Shown in pieces: positions 4,720 through 37,337 of a DNA stretch of 37,337 nt. The stretch comes from Desulfovibrionales bacterium (lineage in GTDB: Bacteria; Desulfobacterota; Desulfovibrionia; Desulfovibrionales; Desulfonatronaceae), in the NCBI GenBank assembly GCA_007693505.1, contig REDL01000038.1:1-37337 (forward strand), written 5' to 3'. Position 1 is the stretch's first letter. Every line of letters begins with the position of its first letter. The notes below the pieces were generated by a model. It searched no databases. It was not told the origin of the DNA and saw only the letters and a program-made list of their open reading frames with translations. Position numbers and translations under genes: made by a program.

Positions 4720-4850
4720 CGGTCACTGCAAAAAGTACTTTTTCACGCGAAAATGTGTGATGTGATTTTGCTCAACACCTTGGAAAGACTGGATTCCGGC
4801 TTTCGCCGGAATGACGAATTTCAAGTTTTTGCGACTTTCTGCAGTAACGT
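4720..4850 (+). mobile_element. MITE copy B (131 bp)
   Basis: Same family as copy A in the opposite orientation. It has gtcactgcaaaaagt at the left and actttctgcagtaac at the right, and a central attccggc-tttc-gccggaat hairpin. It is flanked by the perfect 8-bp direct repeat catccatg at 4712-4719 and 4851-4858. It lies just after the acetyltransferase gene. Confidence 0.8.
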
Positions 4851-5957: not shown

Positions 5958-6845
5958 GTGAGGTCGCGTCATTTTTCGTTGTGGATTCCACTGTTGCTGT
6001 TTCTGGGGGCGCTGACCCTTTACCGGCCGTCACCCCTCAACGCTTCAAATCGACTGACCCAGGCCCTCGATGCCGAGGATGCCATCCTCCGCCAGACCCA
6101 GGAATCCCAGGCTCGGGTGAACGCCATGGCCGACGAGACCCTCCGGCTGGTCCAGGAGTATCGGGCTTTGCGGCGGGAGCAGGAGAACCTGGCCGTGTAC
6201 AACGCCAACCTGGAAGACATGGTCCGGTCCCAGGTGGCCGAGGTGGTTTCGCTGGAGCGGCAGATCGAGGAGATCAAGGTCACCCAGCGGGAGATCGTGC
6301 CCTTGATGCTGCGCATGCTGGGCGGACTGGAGGCCTTGGTGGTCGCGGACCTGCCGTTCCTTCTGGAGGAGCGGATGGCCCGGGTGGAGGGGTTGCGGGC
6401 CTTGATGCGCCGGGCCGACGTGGATGTTCCGGAGAAGTTCCGCCAGATCATGCAAGCCTATCAGACCGAGGCCGACTACGGGCGAACCATTGAGGCCTAT
6501 CAGGGCGAACTGATCGCGGACCACGAACCAGGGCGCAGCGTCGAGTTCCTGCGGATCGGCCGGCTGGTCCTGGCCTATCAGACCCTGGACCGAAGCGAGA
6601 GCGGCTTCTGGGATGCCCGGCACCAAACCTGGACACCTCTGGATAACCGCCACAATCAATCCATTCGCCAGGGTTTGCGCATCGCGGCCCGACAGGCCGC
6701 GCCGGAGTTGATCCAGGTTCCGGTGAACGTCTCCACGCCGTGGATGGAACCGGTTCTTCCCGGTTCTCCAGATGCCAACGCCGAATTCGAAGGCCTGAAC
6801 AACACGGAAACGGAGACTGAAAATGGCCTGGAGGCGCGACGATGA
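5958..6845 (+). CDS. DUF3450 periplasmic coiled-coil protein of a TonB2-type system
   Basis: A 295-residue protein with an N-terminal signal peptide or anchor (about residues 6-25). A long heptad-rich coiled coil follows (30-115: LRREQENL, VSLERQIEEIK), and then a globular part with LPFLLEERMARVEGL, GRLVLAYQTLDRSESGFWD and LRIAARQAAPELIQVPV. This is the DUF3450 (PF11932) pattern. In vibrios and related bacteria the family is encoded directly ahead of TtpC-ExbB-ExbD-TonB operons and is thought to assist them in the periplasm; its biochemical role is not settled. Start is GTG at 5958, seven bases after agaagga. The stop overlaps the next start by four bases (ATGA), indicating translational coupling. 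Confidence 0.85.
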   Translation: MRSRHFSLWIPLLLFLGALTLYRPSPLNASNRLTQALDAEDAILRQTQESQARVNAMADETLRLVQEYRALRREQENLAVYNANLEDMVRSQVAEVVSLERQIEEIKVTQREIVPLMLRMLGGLEALVVADLPFLLEERMARVEGLRALMRRADVDVPEKFRQIMQAYQTEADYGRTIEAYQGELIADHEPGRSVEFLRIGRLVLAYQTLDRSESGFWDARHQTWTPLDNRHNQSIRQGLRIAARQAAPELIQVPVNVSTPWMEPVLPGSPDANAEFEGLNNTETETENGLEARR

Positions 6846-8203
6846 TCGGCTTTTTCCCGGTATCCGTTGCCATACTGATCGTTTTGACACTTCTTGGCTC
6901 CCCTCTCCCTGCTCAGCCATCCACCGGCCTGGACGTCTTCCTGGAGCAGGTCCGCCAACGGGCCAAGAACGAGGAACGGATCAACCAAGAGCGGGAACAA
7001 GAATTTGGCGCTGATCTGGACGCGGCCCGCGCGCGTATCCAGAAGGCCCGCTCAGCTGTCCGTGCGGAGCAGGATCGCCAGGAACTTCTACTCAAGAACT
7101 TCGAGGCCAACGAGGCAATTCTCACGGAGTTGGAAGCCCTCCTGCACGAGGAGCAGGGCGGGCTGGGCGAGATGTTCGGCGTGGTGCGCCAAAGTGCCGG
7201 GGATTTTCATGCCCAGTTTGTCGGCTCCCTGGCCATGGCCGACAGGCCCGAGGCTCTGGAATTCCTCGACGGGCTGAGCGACAGCCGGACCCTGCCGGGC
7301 ATGGCCGAGCTGGAGCGGATGTGGATTCTGGTCCTGGAGGAAATGGTCGACTCGGGCCGGGTGGACCGCTTTGTCGGCGAGGTGGTTCTGCCGGACGGCA
7401 CGAAGCAGGACAGTGAGGTGCTCCGGATCGGCGCGTTCAATGCCGTGGCCGATGGGCGGTACCTGTCCCACGTTCAGGGCCGCAACCAATTTCTGGAACT
7501 GCCGCGCCAACCCCGAAACCGACACCTGCGTTTAGCTCGTGAACTGGAGCAGGCCGAGCCGGGGGAAACGCGCTTCTTCGCCCTGGACCCTTCCCGGGGC
7601 GCGATCCTGGCTCACCTGGTCCAGTCGCCAACGCTCATCGAACGGATCAAGCAGGGCCGGGAGATCGGGCTGATCATCCTCGGCCTGGGCCTGTTCGGGC
7701 TGATCCTTTTTCTGGTCCGCTTCACCATCCTGGCCGTCATGGACCGCCGTATCCAGCGTCAACTGCGTTCCGAAACGCCCCTGGCGGACAACCCTCTGGG
7801 ACGGATCCTCCAGATCAGCGGCGCCAGTCGTCGCGTGGACCCGGAAACCCTGGAAATCCGCCTGGACGAGGCCGTACTCAAGGAAATTCCTTCTCTGGAA
7901 CGGGGCTTACGGACCATCAAGATCCTGGCTGCCATGGCCCCGCTTCTGGGCCTGTTGGGCACCGTGGTGGGGATGATCGAAACCTTTCAGGCCATCACCC
8001 TCTTCGGCACCGGCGATCCCCAGCTCATGGCCGGGGGCATCTCCCAGGCCCTGGTGACCACAGCCCTGGGCCTGTCCGTTGCGATTCCGCTGCTTTTCCT
8101 GCACAGCCTGGCCGCGGCCAAGAGCCGGACACTGGTGAACATCCTGGAGGAGCAGGGGGCGGGGTTGCTGGCCGAGCATATTCAAAGGACGCGGGAAAGA
8201 TGA
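6842..8203 (+). CDS. ttpC: TtpC-like MotA/TolQ/ExbB-family channel protein with long periplasmic coiled coil
   Basis: A 453-residue inner-membrane protein. It has an N-terminal signal-like segment (2-22) and a periplasmic coiled-coil and globular region to about residue 270. Three membrane helices follow near 275-300, 361-385 and 403-425; the last two carry the proton-channel core of the ExbB/TolQ family (MAPLLGLLGTVVGMIETF and ALVTTALGLSVAIPLLFLH). The size and layout match TtpC, the extra component required by TonB2 systems of Vibrio. It should couple the proton gradient, with ExbB, ExbD and TonB, to outer-membrane transport. It overlaps the DUF3450 gene by four bases and its TGA overlaps a small histidine-rich frame. 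The symbol is given by family resemblance. Confidence 0.85.
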   Translation: MIGFFPVSVAILIVLTLLGSPLPAQPSTGLDVFLEQVRQRAKNEERINQEREQEFGADLDAARARIQKARSAVRAEQDRQELLLKNFEANEAILTELEALLHEEQGGLGEMFGVVRQSAGDFHAQFVGSLAMADRPEALEFLDGLSDSRTLPGMAELERMWILVLEEMVDSGRVDRFVGEVVLPDGTKQDSEVLRIGAFNAVADGRYLSHVQGRNQFLELPRQPRNRHLRLARELEQAEPGETRFFALDPSRGAILAHLVQSPTLIERIKQGREIGLIILGLGLFGLILFLVRFTILAVMDRRIQRQLRSETPLADNPLGRILQISGASRRVDPETLEIRLDEAVLKEIPSLERGLRTIKILAAMAPLLGLLGTVVGMIETFQAITLFGTGDPQLMAGGISQALVTTALGLSVAIPLLFLHSLAAAKSRTLVNILEEQGAGLLAEHIQRTRER

Positions 8204-8283
8204 GTTCTTTCGAGGACGTTCACGTACCCGCCCACGCCCACGCCCACGTTCACGTTCACGTTCACGAAACAAGCCATGCTTGA
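8200..8283 (+). CDS. Possible 27-residue histidine-rich peptide
   Basis: An ATG at 8200 overlaps the stop of the TtpC-like gene as ATGA and opens a 27-codon frame that ends at the TGA at 8281-8283, beyond the ATG of the following exbB (8276). Its middle is made of tandem hexamers (gcccac repeated, then gttcac repeated) that encode alternating Ala-His and Val-His; eight of 27 residues are histidine. It could be a real metal-binding or leader peptide, or simply a spacer whose translation carries ribosomes to exbB, which has no ribosome site of its own. Similar hexamer runs occur as non-coding noise in other genomes, so confidence in a functional product is low. Confidence 0.35.
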   Translation: MSSFEDVHVPAHAHAHVHVHVHETSHA

Positions 8284-8857
8284 GCCGATCCTCAACCTGC
8301 AACGATTTCTGGACGCCGGAGGTCCGGTCCTGTGGGCCATTCTTCTGGTGGCCGTGATCCTCTGGACCCTGATTATCGAGCGCTACTGGCATCACTGGCG
8401 GATTTTCCCGCAAGAACTAGCCGCAGTGCGCGCCCGACGGGCCGAACAGCCACCTCAGGAACGCCGCATCGCCCGGATGCTGCTGCGCAAGGACGTCTCC
8501 GAACTGCGCCAGGGCCTGACCCGCTCCCTGACCGCCATCCGCACCCTGATCGCGGCCTGCCCGCTGCTGGGCCTGCTGGGCACGGTCACCGGGATGATCC
8601 ATGTCTTCGACGTGATCGGCTTCAGCGGCACGGGCAATCCCCGGGCCATGGCCGCGGGCGTGTCCATGGCCACCATCCCGACCATGGCCGGACTGGTGGT
8701 GGCCCTCTCCGGGTTCGTGTTCAGCATCCGCTTGCAACGCGGCGGCGAGGCCCATGTCCGGGAGGCCGAGGACGTGTTGAAGCGGGATATGCTGGAGGAG
8801 AAAGAAGTCAGGAGTCAGAAGTCAAAACCATTTAACCGCAGTTATTTCAACCGTTGA
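8276..8857 (+). CDS. exbB: ExbB-type proton-channel subunit
   Basis: A 193-residue MotA/TolQ/ExbB-family protein. Membrane helices lie at about 15-37 (GPVLWAILLVAVILWTLIIE), 89-115 (CPLLGLLGTVTGMIHVFDVI) and 130-152 (TIPTMAGLVVALSGFVFSI). The GLLGTVTGM and TMAGL motifs are the conserved pore-lining segments. It is the second channel protein in this operon, corresponding to ExbB2 next to TtpC in vibrio TonB2 systems. The ATG at 8276 lies inside the histidine-rich micro-frame and lacks a Shine-Dalgarno sequence, so translation probably depends on coupling. The last ~15 residues (VRSQKSKPFNRSYFNR) are polar and unlike the family. Confidence 0.88.
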   Translation: MLEPILNLQRFLDAGGPVLWAILLVAVILWTLIIERYWHHWRIFPQELAAVRARRAEQPPQERRIARMLLRKDVSELRQGLTRSLTAIRTLIAACPLLGLLGTVTGMIHVFDVIGFSGTGNPRAMAAGVSMATIPTMAGLVVALSGFVFSIRLQRGGEAHVREAEDVLKRDMLEEKEVRSQKSKPFNRSYFNR

Positions 8858-8892: not shown

Positions 8893-9297
8893 ATGCGACG
8901 CAGACGACGATACGACGACCAGGAAAGCGCCCAGATCGACATGACCTCGATGATGGATGTGGTGTTCATCATGTTGATTTTCTTCATCGTGACCACATCC
9001 TTCGTCAAGGAGGCGGGGATCGAGGTGAATCGGCCCATCGCGGCCAGCGCCGAGCGCCAGGAGCGGGGCAACATCATGATCGCGGTTTCCGAATCCGGCG
9101 CGGTCTGGATCGACGGGCGGCAGGTGGACGTGCGGGCCGTGCGGGCCAACGTGGAGCGGCTGCGGGTCGAAAACCCGGAGGGAGCCGTGGTCATCCAGGC
9201 CGACGAGGCGTCGCGTACGGGAATCCTGGTCCAGGTCATGGATCAGGTCCGACTGGCCGGGGTGCATAATGTGGCCGTGGCCGCGAGCAAGCCATGA
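8893..9297 (+). CDS. exbD: ExbD/TolR-family biopolymer transport protein
   Basis: A 134-residue single-pass protein. A cytoplasmic arginine-rich start (MRRRRRYDD) is followed by DMTSMMDVVFIMLIFFIVTTSF, where the aspartate of MMDVVF is the conserved protonatable residue of the ExbD/TolR helix. The periplasmic domain ends in VMDQVRLAGVHNVAVAA, the usual C-terminal motif. It forms the proton channel with ExbB and TtpC. Its TGA overlaps the tonB start by four bases. Confidence 0.9.
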   Translation: MRRRRRYDDQESAQIDMTSMMDVVFIMLIFFIVTTSFVKEAGIEVNRPIAASAERQERGNIMIAVSESGAVWIDGRQVDVRAVRANVERLRVENPEGAVVIQADEASRTGILVQVMDQVRLAGVHNVAVAASKP

Positions 9298-9950
9298 ACA
9301 CCCCGGTACGATTCAGCGTTTCCCTGGTTTGCGGCCTGCTGGCCGCGGTGGGACTGTTCCTGCTGATGCACTTTCTGGTCAGCCGGGGAGAAGCGGGAGT
9401 CGAGGCCCAGCGCCGCGACCCACTGCCCCAGTTCATCCGCATGGAAGAGCAAAAGGAAATCGTGCGTCGCCGGGAACGGGAAAAGCCCGAACCACCCGAG
9501 GAAATCAAACCCATCCCCCGCCTGGAGGCCATGGCCACGCCCACACAACCTACACCCCAACCGCCGACCGTCGACCTCCCCCGATTCGACTTTCCAACGG
9601 ACCTGGCCCTGGCCGGGTTACCCATGGCCGTGCCTCCGCCCGCGCCCAGTGCGCCCAGCGGCCCTGTGGCCTACAGCCAGTCCCTGACACCCATTTCCCA
9701 GGTGCCGCCGCAGTATCCGGTCCGGGCCAGACGCCAGGGCATCTCCGGCTGGGTACGTCTGGAATTCATCGTCAATCCTGACGGATCGGTCCGTGACATC
9801 TCGGTTGTGGAGGCCGAGCCCAGAAAAGGCATCTTCGACCAGGAAGCCGTCCGCGCCCTGAGCCGCTGGCGCTTTCATCCCCAGATGCAGGACGGCCAAG
9901 CCGTCCCGGCCATCGCCACCATCACCATTGTCTTTAATCTGGAGGGGTGA
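9294..9950 (+). CDS. tonB: TonB family energy transducer
   Basis: A 218-residue TonB protein: membrane anchor at residues 7-28, a periplasmic linker rich in Pro, Glu and Lys (REREKPEPPEEIKPIP), and the C-terminal TonB domain from about 140. That domain carries YPVRARRQGISGWVRLEF, NPDGSVRDISVVEAEP, FDQEAVRALSRWRF and a final ATITIVFNL. It should contact the TonB box of an outer-membrane receptor, most simply the one encoded downstream at 11579. Start overlaps exbD by four bases; the next gene follows after three bases with a strong ggagggg inside the tonB end. Confidence 0.9.
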   Translation: MNTPVRFSVSLVCGLLAAVGLFLLMHFLVSRGEAGVEAQRRDPLPQFIRMEEQKEIVRRREREKPEPPEEIKPIPRLEAMATPTQPTPQPPTVDLPRFDFPTDLALAGLPMAVPPPAPSAPSGPVAYSQSLTPISQVPPQYPVRARRQGISGWVRLEFIVNPDGSVRDISVVEAEPRKGIFDQEAVRALSRWRFHPQMQDGQAVPAIATITIVFNLEG

Positions 9951-9953
9951 ACC

Positions 9954-11498
9954 GTGAAAGCAGGTCGTCTGAAGATGAACGCACCAGGGCGCACTCTCGG
10001 CATGGAAATGAGTACAGCCGCGCATGCCGACCCAACCGCCCGCTCCCGTTGGTCGCTCAAGACGCCAGGTTCGCCAAGCAAACCATTTTGGAAAGCAGGG
10101 AAAAAGCTGCTTTCCAAAAGACTGCCGGACCCTGACCGGGCGCGGAACACAACGCCGTCAGGCGTGAAGCCTTTTGGCTTCCGCATCTTTCCAGCGGAAG
10201 CCAAAAATTTCTTCTTGGCATCCTCCGCGCCTTTAGCGAAGCGAGCGGTTCAAACCTTTCTTTTTCTTCGCTGCTCCATCCGCACAATAGCCGCTCTGGC
10301 ATTCATCCTCTGGCTCGCCATTACCACCTTTCCCGCCGAAGCATCAGCCTCAAACGACGCCCCAACGATCTCCCACGGCGCGCACCAGAAGCTCAGCGCG
10401 GCCCAGGACCTGCTGCACGCAGAAAAGTGGTCCGATGCCGATGCTCTCCTGGAGGGCTTTCTTCAGGAATTCCGCCAGGAACCCTTTGCCCTGGCCCTGG
10501 CCTGGCAGATGCGCGGCTTTTTGTTCAGTGAGACCGACCGCCATGAAGAGGCCTTGGAGGCCTTTGACAAGGCCCTGGACCTGGACAGCCTGGACGAGGC
10601 CTCGCGCTTGCGGGTTTTGGCCAACACGGCCCTGATCCTCGTGCTCCTGGGTCGCCATGACGAAGCCTCCCGGCGGATGTCCGCCTGGCTGGACCAGGCC
10701 GATGTCGTCGCCCCGGAACAGTGGGTCCGGGCGGCCTGGGTCTTTTTCGAGGCTGAACGGTACGAGGCGGCGGCCCGCCACCTGAAGACGGCCATCCAGG
10801 AATTGCTTCAGGCCGGGTCCAAGGCTCCGCTCGAATGGTACGACATGCTCCTGGCCGCCCTGCACCACGACGGGCAATACGCGGAAATGATCCGCCTGCT
10901 GCCCGGAATCATGGAACAGCGACCCAACGACAAGCGCTACTGGCAACAGCTCGCCGCCGCGCACCTGCAACTGAACCAGGAGCGCCGAGCCGCCGCCGTC
11001 CTTGCCGCCGGTCATCACAAGGGCGTCTTCAATCAGCCCCAGGACATCATCCAGGTGACCCAAATGCTCCGTCAGGCCGAAACCCCGCACCTGGGGGCCA
11101 GAATTCTGGAGCAGGCCCTGAACAACGGCCAGCTCCGGAGCACGAAGGACAATCTGAACCTGCTGGCCGACGCCTGGCTCCAGGCCCGGGAAATCCAAAA
11201 GGCCGCGACAATCCTGGTCCAAAAAGTCGAACAGAGCGAGGACTGCGCCACCCGCCTGCGCATCGGCCGGTTGTTCGTGCAGATCGAGGACTGGAGCGCC
11301 GCGGCCGGGCAGTTGGAGCACGCCACCGGGGCCAGATGCGCGGAAGTCCGGCCCGACGCTCTGCTCTTATTGGGCATGGCCGCGTTTCACCAGGGCCGCA
11401 TGGAGGAAGCCCGCAAGACCTTTACCCAGGCCAGGGAGGAGCCCAGGGTCCGACTTCAAGCCGAGATTTGGCTGGAGGGCATCGGCTCCGGGGGATGA
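9954..11498 (+). CDS. TPR-repeat periplasmic protein with an inserted N-terminal region
   Basis: A 514-residue protein. From about residue 140 it consists of tetratricopeptide-like helix pairs (for example HEEALEAFDKALDLDSLDEA, YEAAARHLKTAIQEL, GRMEEARKTFTQAREEP). TPR proteins are the usual last member of TtpC/TonB2 operons and are thought to act in the periplasm. The GTG start at 9954 is well supported by ggagggg six bases upstream. Oddly, the signal-peptide-like segment (TIAALAFILWLAITTFPAEA, residues 111-130) lies 110 residues inside. The stretch before it is rich in Lys, Pro and Ser and is encoded by DNA with two strong palindromes (10086-10119 and 10172-10206). I infer an in-frame insertion between start codon and signal peptide; export may be impaired. 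Confidence 0.75.
   Translation: MKAGRLKMNAPGRTLGMEMSTAAHADPTARSRWSLKTPGSPSKPFWKAGKKLLSKRLPDPDRARNTTPSGVKPFGFRIFPAEAKNFFLASSAPLAKRAVQTFLFLRCSIRTIAALAFILWLAITTFPAEASASNDAPTISHGAHQKLSAAQDLLHAEKWSDADALLEGFLQEFRQEPFALALAWQMRGFLFSETDRHEEALEAFDKALDLDSLDEASRLRVLANTALILVLLGRHDEASRRMSAWLDQADVVAPEQWVRAAWVFFEAERYEAAARHLKTAIQELLQAGSKAPLEWYDMLLAALHHDGQYAEMIRLLPGIMEQRPNDKRYWQQLAAAHLQLNQERRAAAVLAAGHHKGVFNQPQDIIQVTQMLRQAETPHLGARILEQALNNGQLRSTKDNLNLLADAWLQAREIQKAATILVQKVEQSEDCATRLRIGRLFVQIEDWSAAAGQLEHATGARCAEVRPDALLLLGMAAFHQGRMEEARKTFTQAREEPRVRLQAEIWLEGIGSGG
10086..10206. repeat. Palindromic insert inside the TPR gene
   Basis: Two perfect 13-bp inverted repeats with related outer ends (ttttgg and ccaaaa) lie in the coding sequence: ttttggaaagcag (10086-10098) with its complement at 10107-10119, and ttttggcttccgc (10172-10184) with its complement at 10194-10206. 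A smaller acgcc-gtca-ggcgt hairpin lies between them. The block is in frame and stop-free. It does not resemble the MITE family found elsewhere in the window. Confidence 0.6.
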
Positions 11499-34728: not shown

Positions 34729-34861
34729 AGGTCACTGCAAAAAGTCCCTTTTCCTGCGAAAACGTGTGTGATGTGATTTTGCTCAACACCTTGGAAAGAC
34801 TGGATTCCGGCTTTCGCCGGAATGACGAATTTCAAGATTTTGCGACTTTCTGCAGTAACAT
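34729..34861 (+). mobile_element. MITE copy C (133 bp)
   Basis: Same orientation as copy B, with gtcactgcaaaaagt left and actttctgcagtaac right, and the central attccggc hairpin. Perfect 8-bp flanking repeats cataaagg at 34721-34728 and 34862-34869 fit a target-site duplication. It lies about 85 bases beyond the end of the MarR-family gene. Confidence 0.8.
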
Positions 34862-37259: not shown

Positions 37260-37337
37260 ATGTTACTGCAGAAAGTCGCAAAACCTTGAAATTCGTCATT
37301 CCGGCGAAAGCTGGAATCCAGTCTTTCCAAGGTGTTG
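37260..37337 (-). mobile_element. MITE copy E, cut by the window end
   Basis: Begins with atgttactgcagaaagtcgc and matches copy A through the central hairpin (attccggc, with one substitution in the other arm giving agctggaat) and on to the end of the window. Its right terminus and flanking repeat lie outside. It follows the fadL-type gene by 160 bases. Confidence 0.75.

Follow-up and report, generated by a model that had tools for sequence, protein, structure and literature searches.

A dispersed palindromic element lies in frame between the start codon and the signal peptide-like core of a ttpD-like gene

Introduction

In the stretch of DNA analysed here (the window; 37,337 nt of contig REDL01000038.1 from a Desulfovibrionales bacterium of the Desulfonatronaceae), the gene for a 514-residue TPR protein (9954-11498, forward strand) has a well-marked start codon, and a segment resembling a signal peptide appears only some 110 residues further on. 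This raises the question of what the intervening DNA is and whether it is translated. A first-pass annotation had proposed that a palindromic sequence at 9954-10350 was inserted in frame and displaced the signal peptide, in a manner resembling the Rickettsia palindromic elements (RPEs). We have followed up this proposal by analysing the locus, its orthologues and the dispersed relatives of the palindromic DNA.

Results

The TPR protein gene is the last of six genes in a TonB2-type cluster. On the forward strand it follows the genes for a DUF3450 protein (ttpB-like; 5958-6845) and a long MotA/ExbB protein (ttpC-like; 6842-8203), exbB (8276-8857), exbD (8893-9297) and tonB (9294-9950), and a TonB-dependent receptor comes next in the window. 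The same order is described for Vibrio vulnificus, where it ends in ttpD2, encoding a TPR-motif protein reported as essential to the TonB2 system (PMC6957404); the two clusters share the DUF3450-TtpC-ExbB-ExbD-TonB-TPR order and the terminal TPR gene, but they belong to different lineages and the likeness was judged solely from the arrangement of the genes and their TPR content. When 348 genomes of the order were searched with a profile, five ttpD-like orthologues were obtained at E 1e-30, all in the six-gene order (5/5 loci). Weaker TPR matches in genomes G010, G013 and G027 (E 1e-8 to 1e-5) were excluded as orthologues, and G021 has an additional ttpD-like fragment of 92 residues. Within the genus, which is probably Desulfonatronum, the gene is present in 3 of 8 genomes. 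Beyond its leader the window open reading frame is intact and 64% identical to the protein of the sister species (UBA663, G001), and its best stretches for the Pfam TPR families begin at residue 181 or later.

The proposed start of the gene is well marked. A GTG (9954-9956) follows the tonB stop at a distance of 3 nt, compared to 2 nt in G001 and G004, and a Shine-Dalgarno sequence, GGAGGGG (9941-9947), lies within the end of tonB. With a pairing energy of -13.0 kcal/mol, this GTG has the best Shine-Dalgarno pairing of the start codons in frame, which bears out the first-pass annotation; ATG 9975 has -8.9 kcal/mol. The three orthologues of the genus share a GGAGGGGTGA motif and a start 2-3 nt past the tonB stop, with pairing energies of -13.0, -13.0 and -16.2 kcal/mol. 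A functional start just before the signal segment would tell against a long leader. Two in-frame candidates do exist between the left end of the element described below and the signal segment, and they are the only ATG, GTG or TTG codons there, but both GTG 10164 (-3.3 kcal/mol) and TTG 10215 (10215-10217, in the right arm of the element; -3.5 kcal/mol) are far weaker than GTG 9954. As a separate observation, the start region AGGGGTGAACCG (9943-9954) is 83% complementary to the right end of the element, CGGTTCAAACCT (10246-10257), in a 12-nt pairing that may occlude the start of the gene in the transcript or have arisen by chance. A local hairpin hiding the start was considered and rejected, as the 71 nt round it are no better folded than shuffles (z 0.91).

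The signal peptide-like segment spans residues 109-132 (10278-10349), with a hydrophobic core and an AEA-type end. The most hydrophobic 15-residue window begins at residue 112, in agreement with the earlier placement at residues 111-130. The residues ahead of it had been said to lack domain character, and this holds: at E 0.001 the leader has no match to any Pfam family. The net charge over residues 28-101 is +13, and AlphaFold, with three sequences only, gives residues 1-100 a pLDDT below 50 while predicting the TPR domain well. The first 80 nt of the leader (9954-10033) have no second copy in the window's genome, and the family profile described below stops short of them. A 9-nt match, GAAAGCAGG, at 9956 and 10091 was judged to be chance.

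A long N terminus is not universal among the orthologues. Counted up to the conserved block, the N terminus is 137 residues long in the window, 85 in G001, 43 in G004, and 42 in both G021 and G025, which makes two long and three short leaders. The 85 residues of G001 are explained by a different palindromic repeat that sits inside the leader, also in frame. When the elements are subtracted, the two long leaders are still approximately 15-20 residues above the short ones.

The two perfect 13-bp palindromes that the first-pass annotation had noticed, with their TTTTGG/CCAAAA ends, are both present (10086-10098/10107-10119 and 10172-10184/10194-10206). They are the inner hairpins of a single dispersed repeat of 221 nt (10034-10254, forward strand), bounded by a family search and profile match and narrower than the insertion first proposed. 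Hairpin A (10086-10119) has an 8-nt loop and compensatory changes in 4 of 10 family-helix pairs, and hairpin D (10172-10206) has a 9-nt loop and such changes in 5 of 11. The element has inverted ends, AACCGCCCGCT.../...AGCGAGCGGTT, corresponding to TGAACCGCCCGCT.../...AGCGGGCGGTTCA in the consensus of 36 aligned copies. A profile built from these copies matches the window at 10034-10253 (envelope to 10254) with 220.2 bits on the forward strand, and the same stretch with 60.7 bits on the reverse strand, showing that the whole element is an imperfect palindrome. Many of the long matches from a DNA search of the genus likewise span 10034 to 10252-10254. Two subtypes of the element can be told apart according to whether the left arm contains 8 nt resembling CCCGTTGG (A2 columns 14-21; window 10045-10052).

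The fold of the element is also more stable than expected (-100.4 kcal/mol versus a shuffle mean of -77.7; z -4.59). In the family structure, which was predicted from the same 36-copy alignment that was used for counting pairs, 95.3% of the pair cells hold standard pairs and 17 of 42 pairs show compensatory changes, a number reached by none of 500 shuffles; control structures slid by 1 to 3 columns have only 5-9 such pairs. The covariation term that RNAalifold assigns to the family fold is small (-0.9 of -30.8 kcal/mol). The window copy retains 40 of the 42 family pairs, so that its hairpin is intact. No Rfam family comes near its gathering score for the element; the sole match listed, TCL6_1 (19.5 bits versus 60 needed), is located next to the element but on the opposite strand and was discarded.

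Other copies in the genome had been called for, and they are plentiful. The DNA search matched the element in 8 of 8 genus genomes, with at least 56 matches in G003, at least 33 in G007 and at least 9 in the window's genome (counts that include partial and reverse matches), more than chance would give. Across the wider order, 16 of 199 genomes have a match at 1e-5; 8 of these are the genus itself and the other 8 have short matches only. The loci fetched, mostly stronger matches, contain 74 non-redundant matches, 63 of which are 190 nt or longer; dropping L057, which is cut by a contig end, leaves 62 full-length copies. The 36 aligned copies were picked from these to spread over the genomes, at a time when open frames were already known; open frames were not a criterion.

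By a home-made codon-usage gene caller, 56 of the 62 full copies are intergenic, 5 overlap a gene end and 1, the window copy, lies within a gene. Single calls may be wrong, since the caller missed the TonB receptor gene of the window and called reverse frames there. Thirty-six other frames span an element match, and 19 of these, mostly the longer ones (137-586 aa), were inspected. Eighteen match nothing in Pfam and have the appearance of frames that arise spuriously in GC-rich DNA. The exception, an ALO oxidase frame at L007, is the sole one with Pfam domains and was rejected as a second coding insertion, as it has an apparent ATG of its own after the element.

The distribution of copies points to past movement. 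At two intergenic loci, the flanks are joined in relatives with no full copy between them. At one, this is seen in G003 and G001, and the flanks lie roughly 110-240 nt apart in G004, G002 and G005; at the other it is seen in G002 and G000, where a short left-end remnant may persist. These vacant-site alignments are too diverged to give exact junctions. The supposedly vacant sites at L121 and L122, near 1750, retain a left-end-like stretch, which suggests deletion of a former copy. Some copies are old, given that pairs occupy the same place in two genomes with similar flanks (88-90% identical in three pairs, 73-84% in a fourth). No target-site duplication was found when the flanking words of the 48 of 62 copies with exact ends were compared with shuffled pairings at four offsets; such duplications may have been lost from old copies.

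We then asked whether the element is translated. In the register of the window, 34 of the 35 other aligned copies contain a stop (32 when counting only codons wholly inside the element), and the window copy contains none. Where the window reads TTA in the right arm (10233-10235), 30 of the 35 have TGA or TAA in register; a codon at the left end, two thirds of which falls outside the element bounds, is a stop in 25 of 32 copies and CCA in the window. When the 61 other full copies were swapped into the place of the window copy in both orientations, 7 of 122 swaps (about 6%) were open and in phase, making the open frame weak evidence on its own. Shuffled leaders are open in 1.9% of cases for the window and 11.9% for G001, before phase is counted, and when each copy is read in its own frame, beginning at the left end, 8 of 35 stay open. 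The intact hairpin (40/42 pairs) would also fit a non-translated element. With the evidence combined, a chance reading of the open frame is unlikely: a frame that is open against closed relatives, together with the few swaps that keep it, favours translation from GTG 9954 through the element over a restart at TTG 10215.

Two further repeats occur near the same start codon in relatives. That in the G001 leader has 27-nt arms that are 89% complementary (fold z -5.98) and is unrelated to the window element. Matches to this second family occur in 6 of 7 other genus genomes, many of them only about 27 nt long, and within G001 the leader copy is the sole one to reach E 0.001. Since the family is mostly open (12 of 15 copies have no stop in the frame of the G001 leader), the sister case adds mainly a coincidence of phase. 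Half-sites resembling this family, CTGGATTCCCGCC...GGAATGAC, are present in the window at 511-537, 4789-4816, 34800-34827 and 37292-37321, as weak profile matches (E 0.04-0.2); the frames round the first three share a peptide, CDVILLNTLERLDSGFRRN, pointing to a longer repeat scattered in the window.

The third repeat lies between tonB and the ttpD start codon in Desulfonatronospira (G025; L102, 1247-1415). It is 152 nt long, has a terminal repeat that is perfect over 18 bp, and is accompanied by a target duplication of 9 bp, CCCGCCAGA; the site is vacant in G021, and about 100 matches to the family are found in each of G025 and G021, partial and reverse matches included. Three repeats at the tonB-ttpD boundary might indicate a hotspot, a notion that we have toned down: measured to the nearest ATG, the exbB-exbD and exbD-tonB gaps of G025 (L153, reverse strand) are 73 and approximately 402 nt, whereas those of G021 are 4 and 23 nt, possibly as a result of further insertions in G025. 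As other cluster boundaries of Desulfonatronospira are thus longer too, these data do not single out the tonB-ttpD boundary as a target.

Discussion

We consider it probable that a small palindromic element, dispersed in the host genus and resembling a MITE in form, inserted into a ttpD-like gene behind its start and before its signal core, and that it is read through, with the leader being exported and removed. Whereas the element, its copies, the short orthologues, the conserved start and the open frame are observed, the start at GTG 9954, the reading through the element and the export of the long leader are what we infer. The insertion would have entered the n-region, behind the start codon and before the hydrophobic core of the signal peptide. 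Ribosomes would start at GTG 9954, whose Shine-Dalgarno sequence lies within the tonB end, and read on through the element, producing a leader of about 110 residues of which approximately 74, positively charged and disordered, would be encoded by the element. The hydrophobic segment is predicted to serve still as a Sec signal, and the leader would be removed together with the signal peptide. An n-region could tolerate such an insertion because it has few requirements other than positive charge and because it does not stay on the exported protein, and the insertion would have been kept only because the window copy is open and in phase. Autotransporters offer a partial precedent, with signal sequences reported to be extended at the N terminus by a domain of about 25 residues (PMC2805444); the leader of 110 residues goes far beyond this.

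Of the other accounts, the one that keeps the element out of the protein makes it in effect a 5' untranslated insertion, with translation restarting further in, for which TTG 10215 is the likeliest codon. The n-region would then comprise about 24 residues, and the open frame upstream would be a leftover or due to chance. In favour of this, a start at TTG 10215 would keep the frame and produce a plausible signal peptide, and the element upstream of the apparent ATG of the ALO oxidase at L007 is probably not coding. However, the context of TTG 10215 is weak (-3.5 versus -13.0 kcal/mol) and it lies inside a stable hairpin, the window frame is open against the family trend, and the native start and its Shine-Dalgarno sequence are intact in the window and in G001. 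G001 would, moreover, need a restart as well, at TTG 1510 of L101, which is weaker still (-1.4 kcal/mol). We therefore regard a restart as unlikely. It is more improbable again that the gene is damaged, i.e., that the leader blocks export, leaving the protein cytoplasmic or uncleaved in the membrane and the gene heading for loss. Sec signals usually stand near the N terminus, and only 3 of 8 genus genomes carry the gene; on the other side, the remainder of the frame is undamaged and its product shares 64% identity with the sister protein, the frame has been kept in two lineages, and N-terminally extended signals exist in autotransporters, though these are far shorter than 110 residues (PMC2805444).

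The hairpin might instead matter as RNA, lowering or delaying ttpD translation or marking the mRNA for processing, and so tuning ttpD against tonB, with the peptide merely tolerated. This is compatible with translation through the element and has several points in its favour: the fold is very stable, family-supported and intact here (40/42 pairs), unrelated palindromic repeats lie at the tonB-ttpD boundary in three lineages, and NEMIS and ERIC are reported to affect the mRNA of adjacent genes (PMC2229807). We nevertheless doubt it, as the fold of the 71 nt round the start is no better than that of shuffles (z 0.91) and the longer gaps elsewhere in the Desulfonatronospira cluster mark the boundary there as no special target. 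Finally, two of the five orthologues have long leaders, as would be expected if the long N terminus were an ancestral, real domain with the palindromes as its codons. This we find barely credible, given that it is already contradicted by the dispersed copies, that the two long leaders hold unrelated repeats, both found elsewhere, that three orthologues are short, and that the leader contains no domain.

Should translation through the element and export of the long leader be right, this gene would show how much can hang before a Sec signal, and it would illustrate a simple route for mobile repeats into proteins. In the sister species, a second, unrelated repeat occupies the same leader. Going further, and speculatively, the stretch between start and signal core may be a place where palindromic repeats can generally land without harm, entered independently by two unrelated families in sister species; the intact hairpin might, in addition, adjust how much TtpD is made relative to TonB. 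Repeats would enter this stretch in frame and be kept there, as it is translated but then lost together with the signal peptide, and the secretory leaders of repeat-rich genomes would then be built partly from mobile DNA. We hold this broader proposal to be rather unlikely.

Rickettsia provides the best-known cases of palindromic repeats that lie in frame; here one is found in sulfate reducers, before the signal peptide of a conserved gene. RPEs have been described as small palindromic repeats of 105-146 nt that lie in frame within genes (Ogata 2000, 2002, as described in PMC10969869 and PMC2229807). The resemblance that the first-pass annotation saw covers the generally small size, the palindromic form with its inverted ends, and the in-frame insertion into the gene of a conserved protein, which is left unbroken; this comparison was made by described features and not by sequence. 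It breaks down in exact length (221 nt versus 105-146 nt; PMC10969869, PMC2229807), in placement, as 56 of 62 copies are intergenic and 1 of 62 in a gene, whereas nearly half of the RPEs are described as lying in genes, and in frame, which in the element family is normally closed, with a stop in 34 of 35 copies (32/35 inside the element).

The MITEs NEMIS, ERIC and RUP, as described in PMC2229807, are likewise small and mostly intergenic, with inverted ends and a stable folded transcript. The element has the terminal inverted repeats of a MITE (consensus ends TGAACCGCCC/GGGCGGTTCA), its dispersed copies, and presence or absence at orthologous sites; it differs from these three in that a target duplication was not found for it (48 exact-end copies). 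Because features that define RPEs and MITEs were looked for and are lacking, we assign the element neither to the RPEs nor to the MITEs in the strict sense. Among the titles listed by a literature search, no description of the element or its repeat family was found, and its position before a signal core is unusual. A related case is that of the YPAL/RU-2 fusions of Yersinia, where a dispersed repeat is likewise read in frame beside a signal peptide (PMC2229807). In the account given there, a putative exported protein has a signal peptide made up in part of the hydrophobic peptide of the repeat itself, whereas the present element is hydrophilic and stands before the native signal of a conserved gene.
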